Below are positions 4,210 to 57,978 of a DNA stretch of 64,000 nt, piece after piece (position 1 is the first letter of the stretch; every line of letters begins with the position of its first letter). The position numbers were made by a program, and so were the translations under genes. Origin of the DNA: Rhynchonema sp. JSB1_4 (Eukaryota > Nematoda > Chromadorea > Monhysterida > Xyalidae). The stretch lies in the NCBI GenBank assembly GCA_030248065.1, contig JASAMV010009122.1, forward strand, positions 22,214 through 86,213, read 5' to 3'. The notes under the pieces are model-generated. The model ran no database searches, was not told the DNA's origin, and saw only the letters and a list, made by a program, of their open reading frames with translations.

Positions 4210-7200
4210 CTATGGCTTGTTGCACAAACGTCGCTTCAACCAACTCCACAAGCGCTTGAACATTTTTTGAACCTGAATGAAAAACCACTAAGCTTTTTAT
4301 ACTGATATATTAGCGCGATCATAACCATTGCTTCACCACAATGAGCATATGAACAGATAATGCAAAGTCTGAAACTCACCTTGGGGTTGCCGAGAGTGTG
4401 GAAGGAAAAGATGGAACAGCCAAGAGCTATATTCAACAGCAGAACGGTTGAGAATAGCACTAGGTTCATGTAGTAAATCGCGATACTCCCAACAAGAAAT
4501 GTTGCAAGATTCAGTGGCATTAGAACCAGCAACCCAAATCGGTTCGCCCTGTGAAATTGAGGAACAAGTTAGGAAGAATTTCTTGGATGTTTGTGAACGT
4601 TTGTAAAACAGAAAAGGCGAAAAGCCACTGACCACGCAACGGGTTTTTGTGGTGATACGTTTTTCGAGAACGATTTCTTGGTTCGAGCATCCATGCCAGC
4701 AGCCTCCAAGAGAATTGTCGTCAGAATGCAAGCTCCTCCAACGGGAACAATCGTGCCCATGAATAAATGCCTTGAATCCCCGTAGTTAAGCCAACATCTG
4801 AATACAGTTATTGACGATTGTTAGCATCCTTTTAATTAGAAGAAAACGTTAGTTGATCTTTATACACTGTTCACTAACGTCCAAATTGAAGGATACTCGT
4901 TACTCGTAGCAGCAGCAGTTAATGCAGTCACAACACCGCCGATAGCATAGGCCACCACTTGATTCATCGGCCTGGACAACAGTCCACCGCCAGGAATTAC
5001 GTTCGCGGCGATAGCGTAGATTTGCAAAGCTTCTAACACAAAAAATGTAAACATCGCCGTGAAGAAGAACTGGCATGTCGCTGCACCCACTTTGCACAGG
5101 AACTAAAATACATCGTCAGTATGCAGTGATTAAGGCGCGGCACAATAATATGAAGGTAGACATTCCACAAACTAACATCGTTGTCTATTTCGTTTCGCAA
5201 CATCAAAATTGACATGTGTGCCAGAAAGAGGCTTATTTCTTCGCCCATGTGCAAACAACGTTCATGTGAAAAGTCTCTGCAACTCAGATTCTTTGCGTTC
5301 AATTTTTGTTTTCTTTAAATACTCGTGACAAGTGATTGTGACATCCCAAAGCTATTTATCACCGTCAGAACAACTATTAGCCAGTGGTTAGCGGCACTAA
5401 TATGCATATTCAAAACTATGCTTTGCTCTGGGAAGGAAAAATAACAAAGAACTGTTCTGGTACGTATGGCGAACTGAGACGAAAGCGTTTTGAGGGAAAT
5501 GACTTTTAGGGCGCACCTGATGACAATATAAATGCCGACAGTACCGCCGACGATGATTAGAAGGTACGTACAACCAATGGCTTGCATTACCGCTGCTGCA
5601 GCTTGTTCGGCCTCGCTCATGGGAATCGGGGGTCGCAAAGTGGTGGTTGCCACGATGGTCGTTGTCGTATTGAAGTATCTGGTTGTTGATGCCGTTGCGT
5701 TTGGCGTTGTACTGCTGGTCGATATTGTGGAACCACCTGTGCAAAAAAGTAACATGCACATATTTGCTGAGTACATGAAACCGAAATGTGGCTCTCTAGC
5801 TAACTGGGAGGAACAGTTGTAATGAGATCATTCACTGTAGTACTGCTCAGTACGGTATAAGATAACATAGAAGTCGCTGTTGCTGATGTCACTGGAACTG
5901 TTGCTGGCAATGTTGTGGATGGGACTGTTGCCGTTGTTGTCATGTCAGGTGTCACTGGAGCTGGACTAGTCGCAGCCATTGGTGAACTTTCTGCAGAGGT
6001 CACACTCGTCGTTGCTGCGGTGATATCTGACGACGGAATTACCGATGCGCTTGGTACTGATGTTTGCGCAGTTGTCTGAGCTTCTGTTGCAGAAGTCGCG
6101 GTTACCGATACTGTAGAAGAAGTAGGTACTGTCCCCAGTGTTTCTGTAGTTGCAGTGATTGTAGGCAAGGTTGCTGTAGCTGTGGTTGGTGCTGCTGCAG
6201 TTGTTATCACGGTTGGCGCTGGCGGCGTTGTTGCTGCGACAGGTGCGGTCGTGACTAGTGCTGTAGTTGGTGACGCCGTCGTCGTGGTTGATGTTGGTGT
6301 TGTTGTCAGGGTAGTCGGTGCTGTCGTCGCTGCCGTTGTTGCAGTCGTAATCGGTGTTGTGATAGTTGTCGGTAAAATAGTAGCGGTCGGTGTTGTTATC
6401 GTTGCTGTTGTGGTTGGTGTTGTTGTCGTGGTTGGTACTGTTGCTGTCATGGCTGTTGTTGTTATCGTTGTCATCGTGGTTGGTGTCATTGTTGTGGTAG
6501 CTCCTGTTGTTGTCACGGATTGTGTTGTTGTAGTGGTTGGGGCTGTTGACGTCGTCGTCGTTGGTATTGTTGTTATAGTAGTTACAGTTGTCGTAGCTGG
6601 CACTGTTGATGGCGTTGTCGTATTATATGCTGTTGTGGCAGCTGGTGTTATTGTTGTAGTTGGCGTTGGTGTCGTTGTCGCGGTTGGTGTTGATGTTGTG
6701 GTCAGTGTTGTGCTTGCCGTTGGTGTTGTGATCGTTGTACTTGGAGTTGTGGTGGTTGTCCCGGTAGTAGTCGGCGTTGTTGTTACTGTTGTCGTAGCAG
6801 TGGCAGCTGTTGTTGTTGGTTCTGCTGTTGTTGTAGTTGGTGTTGTTGTCGTTGTTGCTGTAGTTGGTGTTGTTGTCGTGATGAATGTTGTTGTTGTCGT
6901 TGGTGTCGTGGTAGTAGCTAGTGTTGTTGTTGTCGTCGTAGTCGGCGTTGTTGTTGTAGCTGGTGTTGTACTTGTGGTAGGCAGTGTTGGTGTTATTGTG
7001 GTAGATGGTGTTGTTGTGGTGGTAGCTGGCGCTGTTGTTGCAGTCGGTGTAGTTGTTGTTGTGGTGGTGGTGGGTGCTGTTGTTGTTACGGTAGTTGGTG
7101 TTGTTGTGGTTTGAGTTGTGGTGGTGGTTGACGTTGTTGTTGTAGTTGGTGTTGTTGTCGCAGTTGTTGTAGTCAGTGCGGCAGTCGCGGCTGGTGTTGT

Positions 7201-10200
7201 TGTCGTGGTTGGTGTTGTTGTCGTGGTAGTCGGTGCTGTACTTGTTGTTGTTAGGGTAGTAGTGGCAATCGGTGTTGTAGTCGTTGTTGTTGTAGTTGGC
7301 GTCGTTGTCGTAGTCGGCGTTGTTGTCGTGGTTGGTGCTGCTGTCGTGGTAGTCGGCGTTGTTGTAGTTGTTGTTGATGTGGTCGTGGTAGTCGGTGTTG
7401 TGGTCGTTGTCGTGGCTAGCGTTGTTGTCGTGGCTGGTGTTGTTGTCGTGGTAGTCGGTGTTGTGGTCGTTGTCGTGGCTAGCGTTGTTGTCGTGGCTGG
7501 TGTTGTTGTCGTGGTAGTCGGTGTTGTTGTTGGTGTAGTCGTGGTAGTCAGTGTTGTTGTAGTTGGTGTCGTTGTCGTGGTTGGTGCTGTTGTCGTACTG
7601 GTCGGTGTTGTTGTTGTTGTAGTTGGTGTAGTCGTAGTGGTCGGTGTTGTTGTCGTTGTTGTTGTAGTTGGTGCCGTTGTCGTGGTTGGTGTTGTTGTCG
7701 TGCTGGTCGGTGTTGTTGTTGTTGTAGTTGGTGTAGTCGTAGTGGTCGGTGTTGTTGTCGTTGTTGGTGTCGTCGTTGTTGTTGTCGTTGGTGTGGTCGT
7801 GGTAGTCGATGTTGTAGTGGCTGCCGGTGTTGTGGTGGTGGTGGTGGTTGGGACAGTCGTTGTTGTCGCTGGAAAATTAAAACGCAAATTTATGTCAAGA
7901 TTTCTCCATCAAGTGTCGGCAAATGAGGAGCCCTCTTACAGCTGCGAAGATCAGATATGTATGCTGTCAACTTGGTGTCGGGCCTATTTAGTGGTGCGTC
8001 AGTAACATTGCCATAATTAAAAAGGTTTTCTTGCTAATTATTTTTCTGACCATTGGTACTGAATAAAAGTAACTCACTCGTAGTGGATGTTGTGACTCCC
8101 GGGCAGGGAACGTCAGCTGTATCTGCAATGATTGCATCAATTTTACATGCACAGCGATTATTGAAAGCATTAGGAGTTAGACGTACTGCCCCACTGGCAA
8201 ATGTAGTACAGCGTTGTCGAACAATCCTCACGCGTCCATTTATCATAGTTATTCTTGTCAATTTTCATGCACTGCTGTGATACACTTCCCGTGACTGAAA
8301 CATCAGTCGGTAACACATGAGCACAGCTGAACGCTCCATCGTAGAACCAATTCCCACTGAGATTCTGCTGAACGCCGGCTGAAAGTCATGAACGATGAAG
8401 TTGAGCACACATAATGAACGGATAAGTGTGTAGTGATTAACAAACCAATCCAGGTGTGATCTCCGCCTGAAACCCAAACATTCGTCTCGACAAAGCCATG
8501 AATACCATCCGACGTGAACTTGCATAAGCCACCGTAATCAATGCCTGCTGGTGTTTGACCGGCACAATCGTCATCCGCATCAGTGTATGTTTTTTTCGTG
8601 TTGAATCTGAACATTTCGAGAACAACACTGATACCTCTTTTCATAGTATCCGGGTGAAGTGGTTCGAGTTAAAGGGGGCCTTTCGCATTTCAAACCCCCT
8701 TCAAACTTCGCATGTGTTTAGACAGCGGTCAATGCGTCATAAAAGTCAAACACACCGGAGGTCTAACGTTCAGCATGCGGCCAGGAGATGCCTTTCAAGA
8801 GGAACATCCGCGAACAAAATCAATAATGTGGACCAGCCCAATTTCTACCTGCGCATTCAGGCAACACGCCTGATGACAAAGGCGGTCAACGCGTAGAATG
8901 TTTCGCACTATATTTGCCCCTGCCTCACTATAGAATTTCGCTTTTCTTTTTATTTCGAATTACAACGAATTGTTCATGCGTGGCTGCTAAATGTTTCAAG
9001 GTCTGCTTGTCGCGCTGGAACAATTCGTTGAAATTCGAAATGTAAAGAAAAGCGAAATTCCATAGTTAGTGGTGTTGCACGTTTCATGCGAAACATTCAT
9101 TCGCCTTGACACCTTTTTGATCAAGCAGTTTGCCTGAATGCGCAGGTATAAATTGGGCTCTCCGCGGCACACTTTGTTCCCGGACGTTCTTCTTAAAGTG
9201 CATCTCCTGGTCACATGCTTGAGATTGGGTTGTTGGTGCGTGAGAGTTTAATAACGCCCTGAACAATATTCAAATGCGTGCAAGGTTTGAAGGCGGTCTG
9301 AAATGCGAAACGCCCCCTTTAAGGGCAGAACATTGCATTTAACGACAACAGTATGAGCTGCGACAATTTTGCTTGCAAAATATAGTCCCACATTCTTCAG
9401 GGGTCAGCGATTCCATCAGCTTGAAGCTTTGTGTCTTTAAAGTGAGTCTGTAATGAATGTTTGGCGGCGTTTGTTTGCTGCCAGTTTATTCAGAAAATGG
9501 AGACTACGCATCACAAACCTAGATTTATGAACAATATTTTTAATTGGTTGCTTTGGGGGTGTTTCACGGAGCCCATACATTTTCACAGGAGGTGAAAAAT
9601 TACAGAAGGTTGAGGCCGGCCTGTGCAAAATACAAGGTAATTAAATCTAAGATATTTTCAGTTTTATACTCAGACATTTCTCTGTGGAACGAGATTAAGC
9701 GCTGTACGAAACGCCATGTGTGATAAATGATAAACGAAACGTTCTAAAAAGCAAACCTTTCTGAAGCACCCTTTTACTCCAGGTTACTTTTAGGCATCTG
9801 TGGTGAATGAATATAGTCGTCGATTCAAATAAAAATCCGTTAATTGTTAGCTCCCGATGCTGTGCTTTTCATTTTTCAACACCGTGCACAGCTCACACAA
9901 TGTTTTACATAATGCGCAAACCACCATTGCAAACACCCGCGCGAACTCTGCTGGCCGAAACACTAAACTCCCAGCTAGGCTACGTGTTGTCGCTGTGCGC
10001 GCGTGCACGCGATGGCTGGCTTGCACATGAAAGGTTATGTGAGCTGTAGGGTTTCAAAAAATGAAAAGCACATGATTCGGAGCTAAAAATTAGAGAATTT
10101 TTATTGGTAACCGACGACTAATTTCATGGACCACAAAAATATAACTCTTAAATCTAGGTTTCTGATGCCTAGTCTCCATTTCAGAAACAAGCGCAGCTAA

Positions 10201-10526
10201 AGATTCTTTGCAGACTCACTTAAAAAATGTACATAGATTTTACGTTGCTCTAATCTGATGTATAGTTATCGTGAAACAATCAATCACGCAAAGCATAACC
10301 AACAAACGCGCTTCAACCTCGAGCACCACGAGCTCATTCCAGCAAAATAGAAAGGGCACAACTAAGCTCAGGGACAATGCTATGCGCACCTCTTGAAGCA
10401 CTGATCCGATCCCACGTCAAATTGGCCACCTAGCGAGCCGCAAGTAGCCACGTCCATCACAGCAGCGAAACCAAACCACGTTAATGCGCAACATAGTGAT
10501 ATTGTCAATAAAGCTTTAAAAAACAT
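4210..10526 (-). CDS. C-type lectin–mucin–adhesion-class 7TM receptor (GAIN-less), ~1179 aa
   Basis: Eleven exons join in phase: 10526–10390, 8606–8446, 8378–8187, 8122–8078, 7868–5805, 5736–5517, 5276–5177, 5102–4879, 4797–4633, 4548–4380, 4272–4210. Residues 1–22 are a signal peptide (MFFKALLTISLCCALTWFGF). About 30–172 are a C-type lectin domain (QCFKRFNTKKTYTDADDDC, HTWIG, KWTREDCSTTLYYICQWG); no EPN/QPD calcium motif is seen. About 173–905 are almost pure Thr with Pro/Ala/Ser/Val. About 918–1160 hold seven helices of class B/adhesion type, with the TM3 Cys (FLCKVG), the loop-2 Cys-Trp (TCWLNY), TM6 LLVLMPLNLATFLVG and TM7 ending FSFHTLGNPKVQK. A short basic tail ends at KP. No GAIN domain or GPS lies between stalk and TM1. 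The fold calls are firm; the donor at 4632 is the least certain junction. The first intron (1.8 kb) carries a fold-back transposon. Confidence 0.85.
5805..7868 (-). repeat. Thr-rich mucin-like coding repeat (single 2.06-kb exon)
   Basis: This one exon encodes 688 residues, mostly runs of 4–8 Thr broken by Pro, Ala, Ser or Val. It becomes more varied toward its C-terminal third. Threonine is spelled with all four codons, so the run is maintained at protein level and is not a simple DNA microsatellite, although local blocks (for example around 7395–7510) look like recent tandem copies. Dense O-glycosylation would make it a stiff extended stalk. The Val-rich frames on the other strand are only its complement. 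Confidence 0.85.
8669..9322. mobile_element. Fold-back element with ~310 bp inverted arms, TTAA at both ends
   Basis: The left arm from 8669 (TTAAAGGGGGCCTTTCGCATTTC) matches the reverse complement of the right arm ending at 9322 (...GAAATGCGAAACGCCCCCTTTAA) over about 310 bp, with scattered mismatches and a short central spacer near 8975–9020. There is no ORF. TTAA at both edges is the target site of piggyBac-type elements, but the TIR itself does not let me name the superfamily. It lies inside intron 1 of the receptor gene. Confidence 0.8.
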
Positions 10527-11951: not shown

Positions 11952-14184
11952 TTAACCTTTGCTGTCCGTTGTGCATTGATCAAGACAAACCGTTCGGCTT
12001 CTCGGGTTGCTGTAATGTTTTTGGTCGATAGAGCCACCGCTGAAGGGAAACTGGAACAGATCTCATATTAATGCGGTTGGTTCACCAAACCAAAGTTTAC
12101 CCAACCTGCCACTCGGCACATCCGTACGAACTTAGTCGTGTATTTGCAGTATTGCTTTTCGTTATCAACGAACGTCCAAACTGTGCCTTCAGCACACCTT
12201 GATCGTAGGATGAAGACAACAACTGCAAATCATCGAAGGATGTGCGTTCGTCGTGCACTGTCGAGCGGGTGTAACCGGTGATTCGTTTGTCCCGCAACCG
12301 GACGATTCCGCTTCGAACGGACAGCTCGATGAAGTCAAGGCGATCCTTAGGTGTAATATAATTGTGTAAGCAAGCACAGCTATGTATGTATTTCGGAACA
12401 GAAAGATGATAAATATTGTAGACAAGTACCCGACCATGGTAGGCCCGAATCCCACACCAGTCCAAGACCAATCCGGCAACTCATGTGCCAAATCAAACAG
12501 CACCACGTCATCCAGCACAGCCCATCGAAGAGTGTAGTTGTCTCGTTGATACATGCAGTTAGCGCGCGTCTCAAATCTATGTCCGCGCACCACTATGTGG
12601 TCTCGAGGCTTCGCAGTTGTTGAGGGTGGCCGTGTCATGTAATATGGCAATGCTGTAGTAGCACGTGCAAATAAAGGCGATATCGCGTTGGAAAAAGGCC
12701 GCATGACCATCCATATTGATGAACTTGTGGTGGTGGGTGTCGGTTGAGCGTTCACACGTGGTATGAAGTAGGGCACAGTGGTCGGGTAGTTGATGAGCGC
12801 TTTTCCTGTAGAAAACTAAAGTTTTATGCCCAAAACGACTTTCAGGAGTAAGTACGTTCACAACAGACCCTTGTTACTGCACTGCTCCAATCGGCATACG
12901 CGTCGGCTTTCAGGTGTACGTCTGTGCTTGACACCGAGGGAACCGCCCGTAACCGGGAACTGAAGCAGCGGCCATGATACATTGAAATTTATCTTGGTAG
13001 TTAATTTATGGTTATAATGAAAAGGATGTTTGATCATTAACAGACCTGCCAAGTGGAGCACGAATATGGGTTGAGAGCAGCGAATTCAGCCATGCTCGGA
13101 CTCAACGGCCGGCGAAATCGAACTCTGAGCACACCGTTCGCGTACCGAGAATACAACAAACGGGTGACCTGCCGAGCATTCATGATGGGTGGCGTGTATC
13201 CGATCGTCACTTTGTCCACCAAGCGGACAGTGCCCTTTCGAACCGACAACTCAACGAAGTCGAGATTGTACTGGAAACATAGCAGTGGACTGAACACCTT
13301 GCGGACCATAAATCCCGCGGATCCAGCAGTGCGACAGAAACCAACCATTGATTCGCCAAAAGCTACTCCAGTCCACGAACCATCGGCGATTTTGTGCCGC
13401 ATATCGAACATGATATCGCGATCTCTGTTCACCAGTTGCCATCTTAGCACGTAATCACCGTACGAGAACACGCACTGGCTGTGTACTCCTGAAAGTCCGA
13501 CTCTGGCAATTCCTTGTCGTGTGATTATTTCGGCATTAAGGGCGGACTTAGGTTGAACACGGAAACCGGAACACGGAAATATTTCCGTGTTCCCGGAAAA
13601 ATTTGGAAAAACACGGAAACCGGAAAAAATCCCCTTTTCCAAATTTTAAAAAAAAACAAGAAACAGAAAAAATTCCCCCCCACGAACACCGCAAAAAACA
13701 CCACACAAAAAACGCAGTGATGATGACAAAAGCCAGCGTGCTGACGTCAAAAGCCCGCGTGTTGACGCAAACAGCAACAACTATTCACACGGAAATATTT
13801 CCGTGTTCCGTGAAAATAAAAAAACACGGAACACGGAAACCGGAAATATTTCCGTGCCACGGAAATATTTCCGTGCGCGGAAATCCACGAAACTGGTTTG
13901 TATGTAAATTATTTCCGTGTTCCGGTTTCCGTGTTCAGCCTAAGTTCGCCCTAAGAGGGACCTAGCCCATAGGCTAGCCGCTTGCATTCGGCAACGTGGC
14001 ACGCACCAAAGTAAGCAAATCTATGTGGACAAAAGCGAGGAACACAGCTACGGGCTACATTTACATCGATTTTAGTGTTCGATGTTAAACTGCGGTTGTT
14101 ATACTCATGGACTCCAAGCATAACTAAACCTGAGATTCCGATGGATAACAGAACACAGAGCGATCCAATATCAATTGTATCCAT
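11952..14184 (-). CDS. Secreted protein with two DOMON modules, ~463 aa
   Basis: Seven in-phase exons: 14184–13962, 13488–13346, 13270–13046, 12959–12869, 12805–12435, 12345–12106, 12050–11952. Residues 1–24 are hydrophobic (signal or anchor). Then comes a small Cys cluster (SCVPRFCPHRFAYFGACHVAEC). DOMON 1 runs from QCVFSYGDYVLRWQL through GSWTGVAFG to LDFVELSVRKGTVRL. DOMON 2 repeats the pattern (NCMYQRDNYTLRWAV, WSWTGVGFG, LDFIELSVRSGIVRL). After each comes FP(V/F)(T/S)GGS and an RxVC...QC Cys pair. A Pro/Thr linker separates the modules. Both modules are split by introns at the same place, so the gene arose by internal duplication. DOMON domains bind haem or sugars and act outside cells or in secretory compartments; the ligand here cannot be told. 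The donor at 13961 (GTCCCT) is weak. Confidence 0.8.
13537..13954. mobile_element. Inverted-repeat element in DOMON intron 1
   Basis: The ends are inverse copies of each other over about 30 bp (AGGGCGGACTTAGGTTGAAC against AGGGCGAACTTAGGCTGAAC). The interior consists of repeated, mostly palindromic words such as CACGGAAATATTTCCGTG. Confidence 0.7.
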
Positions 14185-19624: not shown

Positions 19625-21435
19625 TCAAGAGGAAGCATTGCTGGAATCTGAGTCCGACGCATAGCCAGCTAGTGCAGCCAGACCGGAATTTGTTCCTGTG
19701 TCCACTTCGGATTTATCAGTTGTCAACTCGACATCAGCACGTTCTGTATGATCACGAGGACTTGCGCTGGACGTCGTTGCACTGGCCGCACTGCTCGTAC
19801 CAACAGCAAGACTCGTTGTGTCTTTCGCCTTTTTGGTCACGACTAACGGCGGCGAGTGAACATTTGATGATGTTCGTTTCTGGCCTGGTTTCACCACAGC
19901 AGCACTGGTTTTCAGTCGATCGATCCAGTTGGATTTTGCTTCGTTTTTGTCAGCTGCTTTTGACATGAGCAGATTGCTGCCGACATCAGGGGTCCCCTGT
20001 TTGCGTGATTTGCGTCCAGAGGATGCACTGGGTGATGCAAAGATAGATTCGGACGTGATACGGCCCCGTCGTTCGCGCTGCTGTTCCTCCGAGCCTACAA
20101 TTACAGAAAAACATATCGCTTTCACAAAGAAATTAGGAGGAACAAGCTAAAAATCTCAATATTGAACCAGACAGCATTCTGAAGACCAACTTTTCACTGT
20201 TCGGTACTGCGCCAACAACGAAGCCAACTTTTTATCGTCTTCGTGTTCCTTTACCAATTGCAGTCCGCTGCCATCCAGTGAACATTTGGCCAGTAATTTG
20301 TTGTCGCTTTCTTGTTCGGCCTGCTGCTCTTTCTTCAGGGCCTGTAATATTAGTGCCTAGCGTATGGACAAACATAGAGAGCGTCCCAGACGCACAAAGA
20401 TCATCAGAAAAAGTCCATAAACAGCAGTCAGAATGCCAATAGCGACTAACTCTAAATTTCGATCTGAGATATCGATTGACAGCAAAATCGTCTTCCATTC
20501 GATGTTGTATTGATTCGATATGTTCAATTCTGGGTGTCTCACTCGACACCTTATTCTTGTCGACTTCGACATGTTCCAACTTGTACATGGCATCGGCAGC
20601 CAATCTGGCCGATTCAGACCGATCGTGCACTCCATGACCAGCGTATTGGGACGGATCCCAGCGTTTCTCCTGCCGACGACAACCCTCCACAAGCTCGTAG
20701 TCGAAATTCTGCGAAAATTAGGTTGAATGATTTTGTGGGACTGATGTAAGCTGGTGACGAACTGGTTATTTAACTGGTTATTTTAGCTGGTGATCGGTCA
20801 GGGCCAATATATTGTTTTCGTAATCGTTACTGCAATTGTATGAGAAACAAAAAGCTATTTCGAGATAAGCCGGTGCCACTAGTTTCCCAGCTGTGACAGC
20901 TGTTCGGGAACAATACAAAGATCACCCCCGATTAAAACGTGTGAGATTAGTACAGATCCTGAATGAAAATACCCCTTGAAAACGCAAAACAGTATCGATT
21001 ACGCCAGGTTTGATTCTGATTCCAACTGACAACTCCAGATCACAAACCTTGGGATCAGTGCGAATGATGAAGTAATTTTCGCACAAATGACATCGCATCT
21101 TGAACTCATAGATTGGTGTGGTGAAGTAGTTGCCAACTTTCTTCTTCTCCGAGTTGTATCGTACGCCCATACCAACGTGGTTCCCACAGCCTTCGCACCA
21201 AATATTGAACGGCATCTCGAATCTTAATTGGGGGGGATTATATTTTGCCAGAAAGACTGTCAATAAGCCAGCCATAAAACAGAAACACAACGTACCTAAT
21301 GATGAGAATGCCCTGGTCAATCTTGGCAGCCCGTTCCCGCAACGCGTGCGTGCCATGGTACCGATTGAGGTTGCCATGTTTGGCTGGGTCGAAATCCGGA
21401 GGGTAATACTTGTTCTGACCCTTGCGCTCACCCAT
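19625..21435 (-). CDS. CCDC130/CWC16 (Yju2-like) splicing factor homologue, 397 aa
   Basis: Five in-phase exons: 21435–21296, 21222–21048, 20708–20451, 20341–20191, 20094–19625. The N-terminus MGERKGQNKYYPPDFDP, then HGTHALRERA, GILIIRFEMPFNIWC, the Cys pairs WCEGC and RCHLC, and TTPIYEFKMRC are the signature of the CWC16 family. These are zinc-ribbon proteins that join the spliceosome around the first catalytic step. The middle is a charged coiled-coil region (ALKKEQQAEQESDNKLLAK). The C-terminal 150 residues are Ser/Thr/Lys-rich and end in an acidic Ser tail. CCDC130, rather than CCDC94/Yju2, is preferred because of the YYPPDFDP and KHGNLNRYHG region. Length fits the family. The neighbouring aldo-keto reductase ends 413 bp upstream on the same strand. 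Confidence 0.92.
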
Positions 21436-21848
21436 GATTTGTTTCTGTGAACGAATAACATATTTTTGCCAAAGACCCTGTCAAACTGTGGTATTTGAAT
21501 GACGGTAGGCTCGGAGAACTCCGAGATCGGAACAGTTCTGACCGGATTTATGTAAGAAAATAACAAAAATAAAAGTATCACAGATTTTATTAGTACCAAC
21601 AATAATTGCACCAAACAACAGTTGGAATGACAACAGGTTAGCACGAAATTGATATCGTATCGGTCGACAAAATGAATGTGTTGAAAATATGAAGGATTTC
21701 GAGATCTAATAGTGCAGCTAGCGCTCTCGTATTATACAATGTGCGCAACATATAAAAAAACAACTGTGCAGATCTTGCACTGCTACTCGGTACATAAAAG
21801 CTAGAAATTGAAAAAACAACAAAAAATCATACATCCGTTTTTCATGAC

Positions 21849-55900: not shown

Positions 55901-57978
55901 ACGCACAATGCGGCTCGATCATAAGTACCTATGGCACTTATTCATGCGCTACATGTAAAAGTTGGGCATTTGGTGACAGCACTAATGTCATAGAAAGTCA
56001 CCTGTCTCCCTGGTTTACTCACTGCATGCGCGTTGTTCTGAACTGTGTGCCATATAAAAGCGCCAGTGCCAAAGCGATTGAGACCACCCAAACGCACAAG
56101 CAAGTTCAAAAACAAAACGCCGCGCGTTAACAAAATGCGTCGTCAACTTTCGGCACGTACACATAACCGCAATAATCCTACAGCATCGGTGGAGCACGGA
56201 GGCAATCGGTATCGACCTCTATCAGCCTGTGGTCGAAAGTGGTCAAGCGTGCTGGTCGAGGATCCAACGATGCCTGCCGCTGGCAAACCCGACAAGATAT
56301 TCGCTAATCTCACCAATTCGCAGGTGAATCTGTTGAGGTAAGGAACGGGACACTGAGGTAAAGTTATGATCAATTTTGTTGTTGAAACATCTGCTTGTTG
56401 TGCACACATAACGACGTGAACTCATGGAATCGTGTGACATTGTGCAGACAATCCAAGACCATGCTAATAATGTTCAACAGTGCTTCCTTGGTTGCCTCTG
56501 TGATGTGTTTTCACGGACGGGTGGTGCACTATAAATGGTGGGCCCCAAGAAACACACGATCTTAGCATACTAGGTGTTAGGCTCGCTTAAAACATGATTT
56601 TATCTGATCGTTAATTTGCCAGACAATCATGGAACATTCTGTTCGCGAATCGCGAGCGTCACGGCAAGAACATCATGAAACGGACGGAGACGAAACGACC
56701 GGAAACGTCCAATCTGTTCTGCAAGGCGGCCGTCATCGGATGGCTATCGAACAGCACACATCAGTTGACCATTGATGACGCGCCTGCGGTTAGATTGGCA
56801 ATCACTTGCACTCTGCCATACAGCGCATGATGGATGCACCACGATTACGCGATATGTGCACGTCAGTGCTGCACACCGTAAACCTTCTTCGACACGTTCC
56901 GCAACGTGTTGTAAGCTGGTAAAACCGGAGCCCGGTTTATAATTCTGAGAGAGTATCCCTGCCCTTGGGTATCCTACAAAAACAGAAAGGGGCCAGCACT
57001 TCGGGGCAGTGTGCAGAGTTGGCTTTGGCTGATGTTGGCCACAAACCCTTGTCGTTTGCCGTTTCGGCTAAGATTAGGGTTCATGGATCAAAACACCACG
57101 GTTATGACACAATGTCATTTTTGCTGTCGTGCGCCTGGTGGCCTGTGAGGTGGAAGAAATCTTATAAACACAATGCAGACCATTGTGCCTAAATGAAGAG
57201 AAGTCATCCGACACATTTATACCTATCGCAGGCTCAATCCAACGGTGCCGTTGCACAAGGAGCACCAAGCGGGAGTCGCAAAGGTTCCTCACCGAGCACA
57301 CCCATCGTCGCGTTGCCCCGCAATGTCGGTGGCAGCACCTACAACGATCACACTCGTCTGTTGATCACCATGTTCGACTTTGTCGTCAACAACGTGCGCG
57401 ATGCAAATCGCGTCATTGGATATTTGAAGGTAAGTTACTCGAATAATTCAGCCGCACAATTTTTTTCGGAGAATACATATTTACACGTTGCGCTCACGCA
57501 GCGCTGTGCATTTGCGAAGATTGCAAAGTCTGGTCCTATCGGGAGCATTGCACATACTGTACATTGTATGCCACTCAAAGTTCATATGCCCATGCAGTCT
57601 TATGCCATAATCTCACGATCATTGAGTTCATACTGTTCAATTTGCCAAACCTTGACGTTTCGTTTTTCACACTCAAATGTGCAGGAGGTGGGCGCGCGTC
57701 ACGCACCGATGCGGGAGCCCGGGATGCAACCAGCCTACTGGGAGTCGTTCGGTGAGGCGACAATGGAGATCGTTGGCTCAGCAGATGGCGTGCAACAAAG
57801 CAAGGAGACGGTGAAGACCTGGCGTCTGGTGATTGCCGGCATCACGCATCAGGTGCGATTGGGCTACGAAAGTGAACTGAGACGTCAACGCGAACAGGCC
57901 AACAGTCGACGAAACTCACTGACTGGACAGAACAATGGTCAATCGTCATCGCGACGGAATTCAAGTGAGAATAGGTGA
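49968..57978 (+). CDS. Nematode-type globin with long N- and C-terminal extensions, ~381 aa
   Basis: The core is certain: 56135–56337, 56623–56788, 57232–57429 and 57685–57978 join in phase. They give helix A/B (LTNSQVNLLRQSWNILFA), the C–E region (NLFCKAAVIGWL), helices E–F (DHTRLLITMFDFVVNNV, RVIGYLKEVGARHAPM, where the His is the likely haem-binding F8) and G–H (AYWESFGEATMEIV, VKTWRLVIAGITHQVRLGYE). A basic Ser/Arg tail follows. Two upstream exons, 49968–50095 and 54606–54728, with exon 3 extended to 56101, fit in phase and are polar and Ser/Pro-rich like globin extensions, but span a 4.5-kb intron and are less sure. If they are wrong, the CDS starts at ATG 56135 (286 aa). Such extended globins in nematodes are often neuronal and sense or signal through oxygen or redox rather than store oxygen. 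Confidence 0.75.
50096..54605. other. Proposed 4.5-kb first intron of the globin gene; no other gene seen
   Basis: No exon chain with family motifs is visible on either strand. The sequence has no obvious transposon ends, unlike the other long introns. It may hide regulatory sites or the boundary between two genes, if exon 49968–50095 belongs to something else. Confidence 0.35.
54729..56100. other. Second proposed globin intron
   Basis: A 123-codon minus frame (55632–55261) is open but shows no recognisable domain and sits in intron sequence. Nothing else supported. Confidence 0.35.

Follow-up and report, generated by a model that had tools for sequence, protein, structure and literature searches.

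The window analysed here is a stretch of 64,000 nucleotides on contig JASAMV010009122.1 (C5599) of the nematode Rhynchonema sp. JSB1_4. On its minus strand, positions 10526-4210 hold a receptor gene whose eleven exons join in phase to a predicted product of 1179 residues: a signal peptide is followed by one C-type lectin-like domain (CTLD), a threonine-rich stalk of 742 residues, and a seven-transmembrane domain (7TM) of class B2, the adhesion type of G-protein-coupled receptors (GPCRs). All ten introns have GT-AG borders, the phases are consistent throughout, and the sole stop codon is the one at the end of exon 11. Coordinates, strand, exon number and these four parts had been proposed in an earlier annotation (below, the sequence-only reading) and were re-derived here, with phases and splice borders in agreement.

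Exon 1 (10390..10526) contains the start codon, the hydrophobic N-terminus with the predicted signal peptide, and the first cysteine of the CTLD; its donor is of phase 2, the same as in the paralog on contig C1251 described below. The middle and the end (ICQWG) of the CTLD come from exons 2 (8446..8606) and 3 (8187..8378), both of which lie in the Lectin_C match and are kept in C1251. Exon 4 (8078..8122), placed by phase-consistent splicing, starts the stalk, exon 5 (5805..7868) is Thr/Pro-rich and mucin-like, and exon 6 (5517..5736) joins the stalk end, the juxtamembrane stretch RPPIPMSEAEQ and transmembrane helix 1 (TM1) without a GPS. The other helices are encoded by exon 7 (5177..5276; TM2, RDFSHERCLHMGEEISLFLAHMSILMLRNEIDND, sharing 23 of 33 residues with C1251), exon 8 (4879..5102; TM3 with its cysteine, and TM4, to EYPSIWT), exon 9 (4633..4797; the Cys-Trp of loop 2, TM5 and the motif EAAGM) and exon 10 (4380..4548; TM6, TM7 and FHTLGNPK). 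Exon 11 (4210..4272) adds a short basic cytoplasmic tail and the stop codon, 79 nt past which stands a polyadenylation-type signal, AATAAA (4131-4126, minus strand).

Two alternatives for exon borders were dropped. A candidate TM2 exon at 5425-5330 gave way to 5276-5177, the translation of which is conserved in C1251 and recognisable in a further paralog, C1669. With the former, the 7TM part scored 20.7 bits against Pfam 7tm_2 and its best PDB relative was ADGRD1 (3e-6); with the latter, and with exon 8 ending at 4879, the stalk-shortened product reached 36.8 bits and the best relative was ADGRL3 (1.7e-10). The end of exon 8 was moved from 4897 to 4879, as set by the conserved EYPSIWT. In intron 1 (10389-8607, 1783 bp), inverted look-alike stretches were seen by eye at roughly 8670-9330, which may be a small mobile element.

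Lectin-like head, stalk and paralogs

The lectin part alone matches the Pfam model Lectin_C with 28.6 bits (cut-off 22.6) over profile positions 2-106 of 107, which identifies a CTLD fold; in a longer, stalk-shortened construct the score was 25.4 bits. Compared with PDB sequences, the CTLD gave a weak match to tetranectin (E 0.003). The sequence-only reading had proposed that the head perhaps reads glycans. WND is a classical sugar/Ca2+ motif of C-type lectins; the place of the WND-type stretch is here occupied by KWTREDC, as judged by eye. EPN/QPD is another, which is also named in PMC9085898. Neither motif was seen when alignments of the CTLDs of the window gene and C1251 were inspected by eye, which leaves the glycan proposal unsupported. 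For the lectin-like head, binding to a protein, or to a glycan in a non-classical manner, would therefore be as likely.

The stalk consists of 59% threonine and 11.6% proline and has a single cysteine near its start, in exon 4. This composition fits a mucin-type stalk with putative O-glycosylation. The coding frame of exon 5 is free of stops, whereas the two remaining forward frames contain 31 and 4. Of its 687 codons, 593 have a C at position 2, and each of the four threonine codons is used (ACA 226, ACC 59, ACG 73, ACT 60). As the exon is repetitive, holding imprecise tandem arrays, its open frame alone is weak evidence; these arrays also suggest that its length may differ among individuals. 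Exon 5 is of phase 1 at both ends, so skipping it keeps the frame and could shorten the receptor.

A paralog on contig C1251 repeats the whole order: it encodes a signal peptide, a lectin domain, a stalk of only 45 residues (60% Thr) and a 7TM, which scores 29.5 bits with 7tm_2, above the cut-off. Eight of its nine introns share the phase of their window counterparts, and the window gene has one intron more. In the 7TM the two products are 61% identical, and differences at codon positions 1/2/3 number 97/50/167 (269 codons); for the N-terminal part through the lectin, including the signal peptide, the values are 38% and 74/70/113 (159 codons). With the signal peptide removed, the N-terminal parts still align locally with a score of 236, compared with at most 52 in 500 shuffles. 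As read from this comparison, the predicted fusion survived duplication, and third-position change is in excess in both the N-terminal part and the 7TM. Two other contigs carry related material. At its start, C1646 has the 7TM half once more, found with a query holding 5425-5330 as TM2; this second copy is probably the other haplotype. C1669 encodes a CTLD (42.2 bits), a Thr linker and a 7TM; a second CTLD-like stretch ahead of the first had no Pfam match.

These comparisons bear on two ways in which the gene could be an artefact. The first is that two adjacent genes, one for a secreted lectin-mucin and one for a bare 7TM receptor, have been read as one. The model was built from genomic DNA alone, and the mucin exon, if read beyond its donor, hits an in-frame stop at once. 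Against this, a single exon encodes both the last part of the Thr-rich stalk and TM1, in the window gene (exon 6) as well as in C1251 (exon 5); C1251 repeats the entire order, and the succession CTLD, Thr linker and 7TM recurs at C1669, so that two separate genes are very improbable; the objection that the sequence-only reading had named as able to overturn it is thus countered. The second is a decaying or mis-assembled gene. The assembly is indeed fragmented (5747 contigs) and the stalk exon repetitive, but eleven intact exons, GT-AG borders at every intron, the lack of an internal stop and the excess of third-position change relative to the paralog make this highly improbable. As modelled, the window gene is a single intact gene from lectin through 7TM.

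An adhesion-type 7TM without a detected GAIN domain or GPS

The 7TM matches 7tm_2 with 36.8 bits (E 3.3e-9; cut-off 20.6) over profile positions 4-240 of 250. With the single sequence as query, 14 PDB sequences came up at E<=0.1, adhesion GPCRs without exception and ADGRL3 the best; with a profile of nine sequences, 35 PDB sequences matched, and 21 adhesion GPCR sequences ranked ahead of the first one of the secretin class. This agrees with the class B2 assignment made earlier. In the alignment with ADGRL3, the TM2 histidine, the TM3 cysteine and glutamate, and the Cys-Trp of loop 2 are retained.

Adhesion GPCRs are explained by their GAIN domain, which cuts itself and hides an agonist. In the window gene the stretch before TM1 reads TTTLRPPIPMSEAEQAAAAVMQAIGC, whereas the same position reads CECDHLTSFAVLMD and CVCSHLTSFTVLMD in two GPS-bearing receptors of this genome, C5345 and C4238. 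No tethered agonist of the type TSFAVLM was found there: the window gene has TTTLRPPIPMSEAEQ in place of LTSFAVLMD (C5345) or LTSFTVLMD (C4238). In a stretch of 188 residues spanning the stalk end and TM1, Pfam detected neither GPS nor GAIN at E<=10; in the same test, the control stretches of C5345 and C4238 gave GPS matches of 34.1 and 33.6 bits. The introns 3' of the lectin exons measure 64-240 bp and are thus too short to hide a GAIN exon, which answers the second objection named in the sequence-only reading; the profile check that it had called for was also run, and found Lectin_C and 7tm_2 above their cut-offs and no GAIN. Searches of the whole genome, exon by exon and with the top candidates scored (17 for GPS, 3 for GAIN), listed eight places with GPS and three with GAIN, one of the latter under the cut-off; none of these is on C5599, C1251, C1646, C1669 or the contigs of the relatives described below. 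The proposals that a GAIN domain is missing and that the stalk leaves no room for one thus stand. Since a GPS is missing, one would expect neither cleavage with release of a fragment nor a tethered agonist as known from other adhesion GPCRs, and hence no autoproteolysis of that type, in line with the sequence-only reading.

The comparison with ADGRL3 (latrophilin type), ADGRE5/CD97 and ADGRD1 summarises the situation. Like these receptors, the window gene combines the 7TM match, the TM3 Cys and Glu, the loop-2 Cys-Trp and an FH past TM7 with a long ectodomain; in contrast to them, it has no detected GAIN domain, GPS or tethered agonist, and instead bears the lectin-like head and the 742-residue stalk.

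Such a receptor could serve as a scaffold, decoy or adhesion anchor, its lectin-mucin portion being the active end, for example in a surface coat, and its 7TM being used for anchoring, trafficking or output independent of G-proteins. The very long mucin-like stalk, the very short cytoplasmic tail of the window copy and the lack of a detectable tethered agonist would suit this role. Yet conservation is higher in the 7TM (61% identity to C1251, compared with 38% for the N-terminal part), which also keeps the residues shared with ADGRL3 that are listed above, and we regard this role as unlikely. Alternatively, a soluble or peptide ligand might bind the 7TM directly, the lectin head tuning location only. 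Loss of the GAIN domain together with its agonist leaves a pocket without built-in ligand, and the secretin and Methuselah receptors, which are GAIN-less class B receptors, are a precedent. However, a Pfam scan of the stalk-shortened product at E<=0.1 found only 7tm_2 and Lectin_C and no HRM or Methuselah-type domain, and the single-sequence PDB matches are confined to adhesion GPCRs; direct ligand binding therefore appears distinctly improbable.

GPS-less relatives, published receptors and surroundings

The window gene belongs to a group of GPS-less receptors in the same genome. More distant relatives of its 7TM were found at seven loci, on C4701, C4226 (with C3685), C353 (three copies), C2789, C3206, C5234 and C446. 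They share with the window gene the TCW motif of loop 2 and a motif EA[AT][AGT]M past TM5, of which C446 retains EATG before its piece ends. On C4226 (L031/L032), two inverted copies of a GPS-less receptor have the whole 7TM in one open frame; the receptor occurs on C3685 too. Several of the 7TMs adjoin adhesive modules: a CTLD-like stretch at C4701 (22.2 bits, just below the cut-off of 22.6), Sushi (22.4 bits) and EGF (22.7 bits) at C5234, both over their cut-offs, and EGF at C3206 (27.1 bits, over the cut-off). C353 (L034-L036) carries three similar GPS-less 7TM copies in tandem, with a thrombospondin-1 (TSP1) module (47.3 bits, over the cut-off) and Thr-rich stretches between copies 1 and 2; a further Thr-rich stretch lies between copies 2 and 3, and an EGF stretch of this contig scores 17.1 bits, under its cut-off. 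Two additional stretches of C4701 and a Sushi-like stretch of C3206 had no match over the cut-off; for C2789, C4226 and C446, the ectodomains were inspected by eye only. Order and strand suggest that the modules and the neighbouring 7TMs are parts of the same transcripts. An exon-wise search of the genome with 7tm_2 at E<=0.01 (32 matches) listed neither the window gene nor C1251, so routine annotation could miss the group.

For a tree, 14 sequences were used: 10 GPS-less, 2 GPS-bearing and 2 B1-like (C145 L042 and C4278 L045, secretin-type by eye). The 10 GPS-less sequences split from the 4 others with 91 ultrafast bootstrap in IQ-TREE and 0.93 in FastTree, values which come from a small tree (n=14) with long branches and partly hand-joined partial pieces. 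The lectin-type loci, i.e. the window gene, C1251 and C1669, cluster with 81 only, and C1669, used alone as query, has its best outside matches in the C353 copies and not in the window gene; these features of the tree and of C1669 count against the reading favoured below. Most likely, a single ancestor of the GPS-less group lost GAIN, and the ectodomains were shuffled afterwards. The wider proposal is that a clade of at least ten class B2-type loci lost GAIN/GPS once and shuffled CTLD-like, Sushi, EGF, thrombospondin-1 and mucin-like ectodomains to form a non-proteolytic, stalk-tuned array of GPCRs for recognition at the cell surface; we put it forward tentatively, considering it somewhat doubtful as a whole. 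With a duplicated copy that keeps the fusion and with this group around the window gene, the observation is stronger than the sequence-only reading had claimed.

Beyond this genome, three protein searches were made, all of which need shared words of five residues, so that relatives may be missed. The window 7TM with 5425-5330 as TM2 (3674 candidates, full-receptor-length proteins lying outside the search) and the 7TM region of C1251 (5604 candidates) returned no relatives. The profile of nine sequences, for which the best 7999 candidates were scored, again with full-receptor-length proteins outside the search, gave two matches: P0001, a protein of 209 residues on a contig of 1214 bases with the source label lgn, matches in TM6-TM7 (50% over 56 residues), and P0002 is a fish adhesion GPCR.

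The sequence-only reading knew of no described receptor family with this domain order, a statement that holds for the full combination but not for its parts. In the portions of the papers that were available, C-type lectin domains are reported on adhesion GPCRs in amphioxus (PMC2246102), Bu_11124 of Bursaphelenchus xylophilus has two CTLDs, a GPS and a 7TM-B2 (PMC9085898), 12 of 40 adhesion GPCRs of the sponge Amphimedon lack a GPS (PMC4302439), a table of 2014 lists Lectin_C with DUF3497 among the N-terminal domains of a 7tm_2 subfamily (PMC8687355), and a GAIN domain is found in the majority of holozoan adhesion GPCRs but not in every one (PMC12716839). Adhesion GPCRs with a lectin domain and ones lacking a GPS are therefore each already published; a CTLD with mucin-like stalk and 7TM but without GAIN was not found in the literature searched, most subscription papers lying outside the search. 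The amphioxus and B. xylophilus receptors resemble the window gene in carrying a CTLD on a B2 7TM; unlike it, Bu_11124 keeps the GPS, and the accessible parts of both papers describe neither a mucin stalk nor a loss of GAIN for these lectin receptors (PMC2246102, PMC9085898). The Amphimedon receptors share the 7tm_2 domain without GPS, but in some of them the N-terminus is short and free of modules, and the authors allow for incomplete models (PMC4302439).

The architecture also has parallels among better known proteins. Receptors of the EMR/CD97 type present adhesive modules on a Ser/Thr-rich stalk ahead of a B2 7TM, as does the window gene; unlike it, they use EGF modules and have a GAIN/GPS after the stalk. 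Polycystin-1 and the group XIV CTLD proteins (thrombomodulin, CD93) are cell-surface proteins that, like the predicted receptor, carry a CTLD on an ectodomain which is long or mucin-like; polycystin-1, however, has a GAIN domain and 11 helices, and the group XIV proteins have a single transmembrane helix.

The surroundings of the gene were also scanned. On the minus strand, 5' of the receptor gene, lie two DOMON-type stretches (13040-13645, 46.5 bits, above the cut-off; 12192-12815, 16.9 bits, below it); the minus strand also holds a piece of a Saf4/Yju2 splicing-factor gene (20925-21731, 114 bits). On the plus strand, a globin-like stretch (57193-57975) scores 21.0 bits, the Pfam cut-off being 22. 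Neither an Rfam nor a tRNA scan gave a match in the window. In the genome, 24-mers of TTAGGC occur at 698 exact places and those of TTAGGG at none; the TTAGGC places listed lie within contigs, often as two sites spaced 30 bases apart, a pattern like that of an interspersed repeat. An exact SL1 was not found in the genome.

Proposed mode of action and meaning

We favour, with a probability of roughly 60%, the reading that the gene encodes a lectin-headed, mucin-stalked receptor with a 7TM from the adhesion side, in which no GAIN, GPS or tethered agonist was found and which would work as an uncut chain. Domain order, missing GAIN/GPS and constraint are read from the sequence; glycosylation, ligand, force and G-protein output are what we infer in the following scheme. 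The receptor would remain one covalent chain, whose O-glycosylated rod would hold the lectin-like head tens of nanometres or more off the membrane. There the head would capture its partner, a protein or, in a non-classical way, a glycan; tension or clustering along the chain would then shift TM1, so that the 7TM core might switch. Signalling or scaffolding could thus occur without a shed N-terminal fragment. Reach would be set by the rod, which could become shorter if the stalk exon, of phase 1 at both ends, is skipped.

Several points count against this reading. The gene model is predicted from genomic sequence, signalling is deduced from the class of the 7TM, and TM6 has a phenylalanine where ADGRL3 has a tryptophan. 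In the paralog C1251, the stalk intron is of phase 0 instead of 1, the last exon leaves the fetched piece without a stop, and the Lectin_C score of 20.9 bits is under the cut-off of 22.6. The GPS and GAIN searches, scored on top candidates, are strong but not absolute: the GAIN model yields fewer places than the GPS model and thus detects weakly, while in one archaeal control genome the GPS model, too, gives a match below its cut-off.

If the favoured reading is correct, an adhesion-type 7TM with a large adhesive ectodomain is found without trace of the GAIN device in a gene that is predicted to be intact, duplicated and constrained, and not in a truncated orphan. The two paralogs, with stalks of 742 and 45 residues, would offer a natural test of what a 7TM needs for switching and of tuning by stalk length. 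Should the more tentative proposal of a shuffled clade also be true, an adhesion 7TM could run on diverse adhesive heads without the autoproteolysis or the tethered agonist that are held to define the family.

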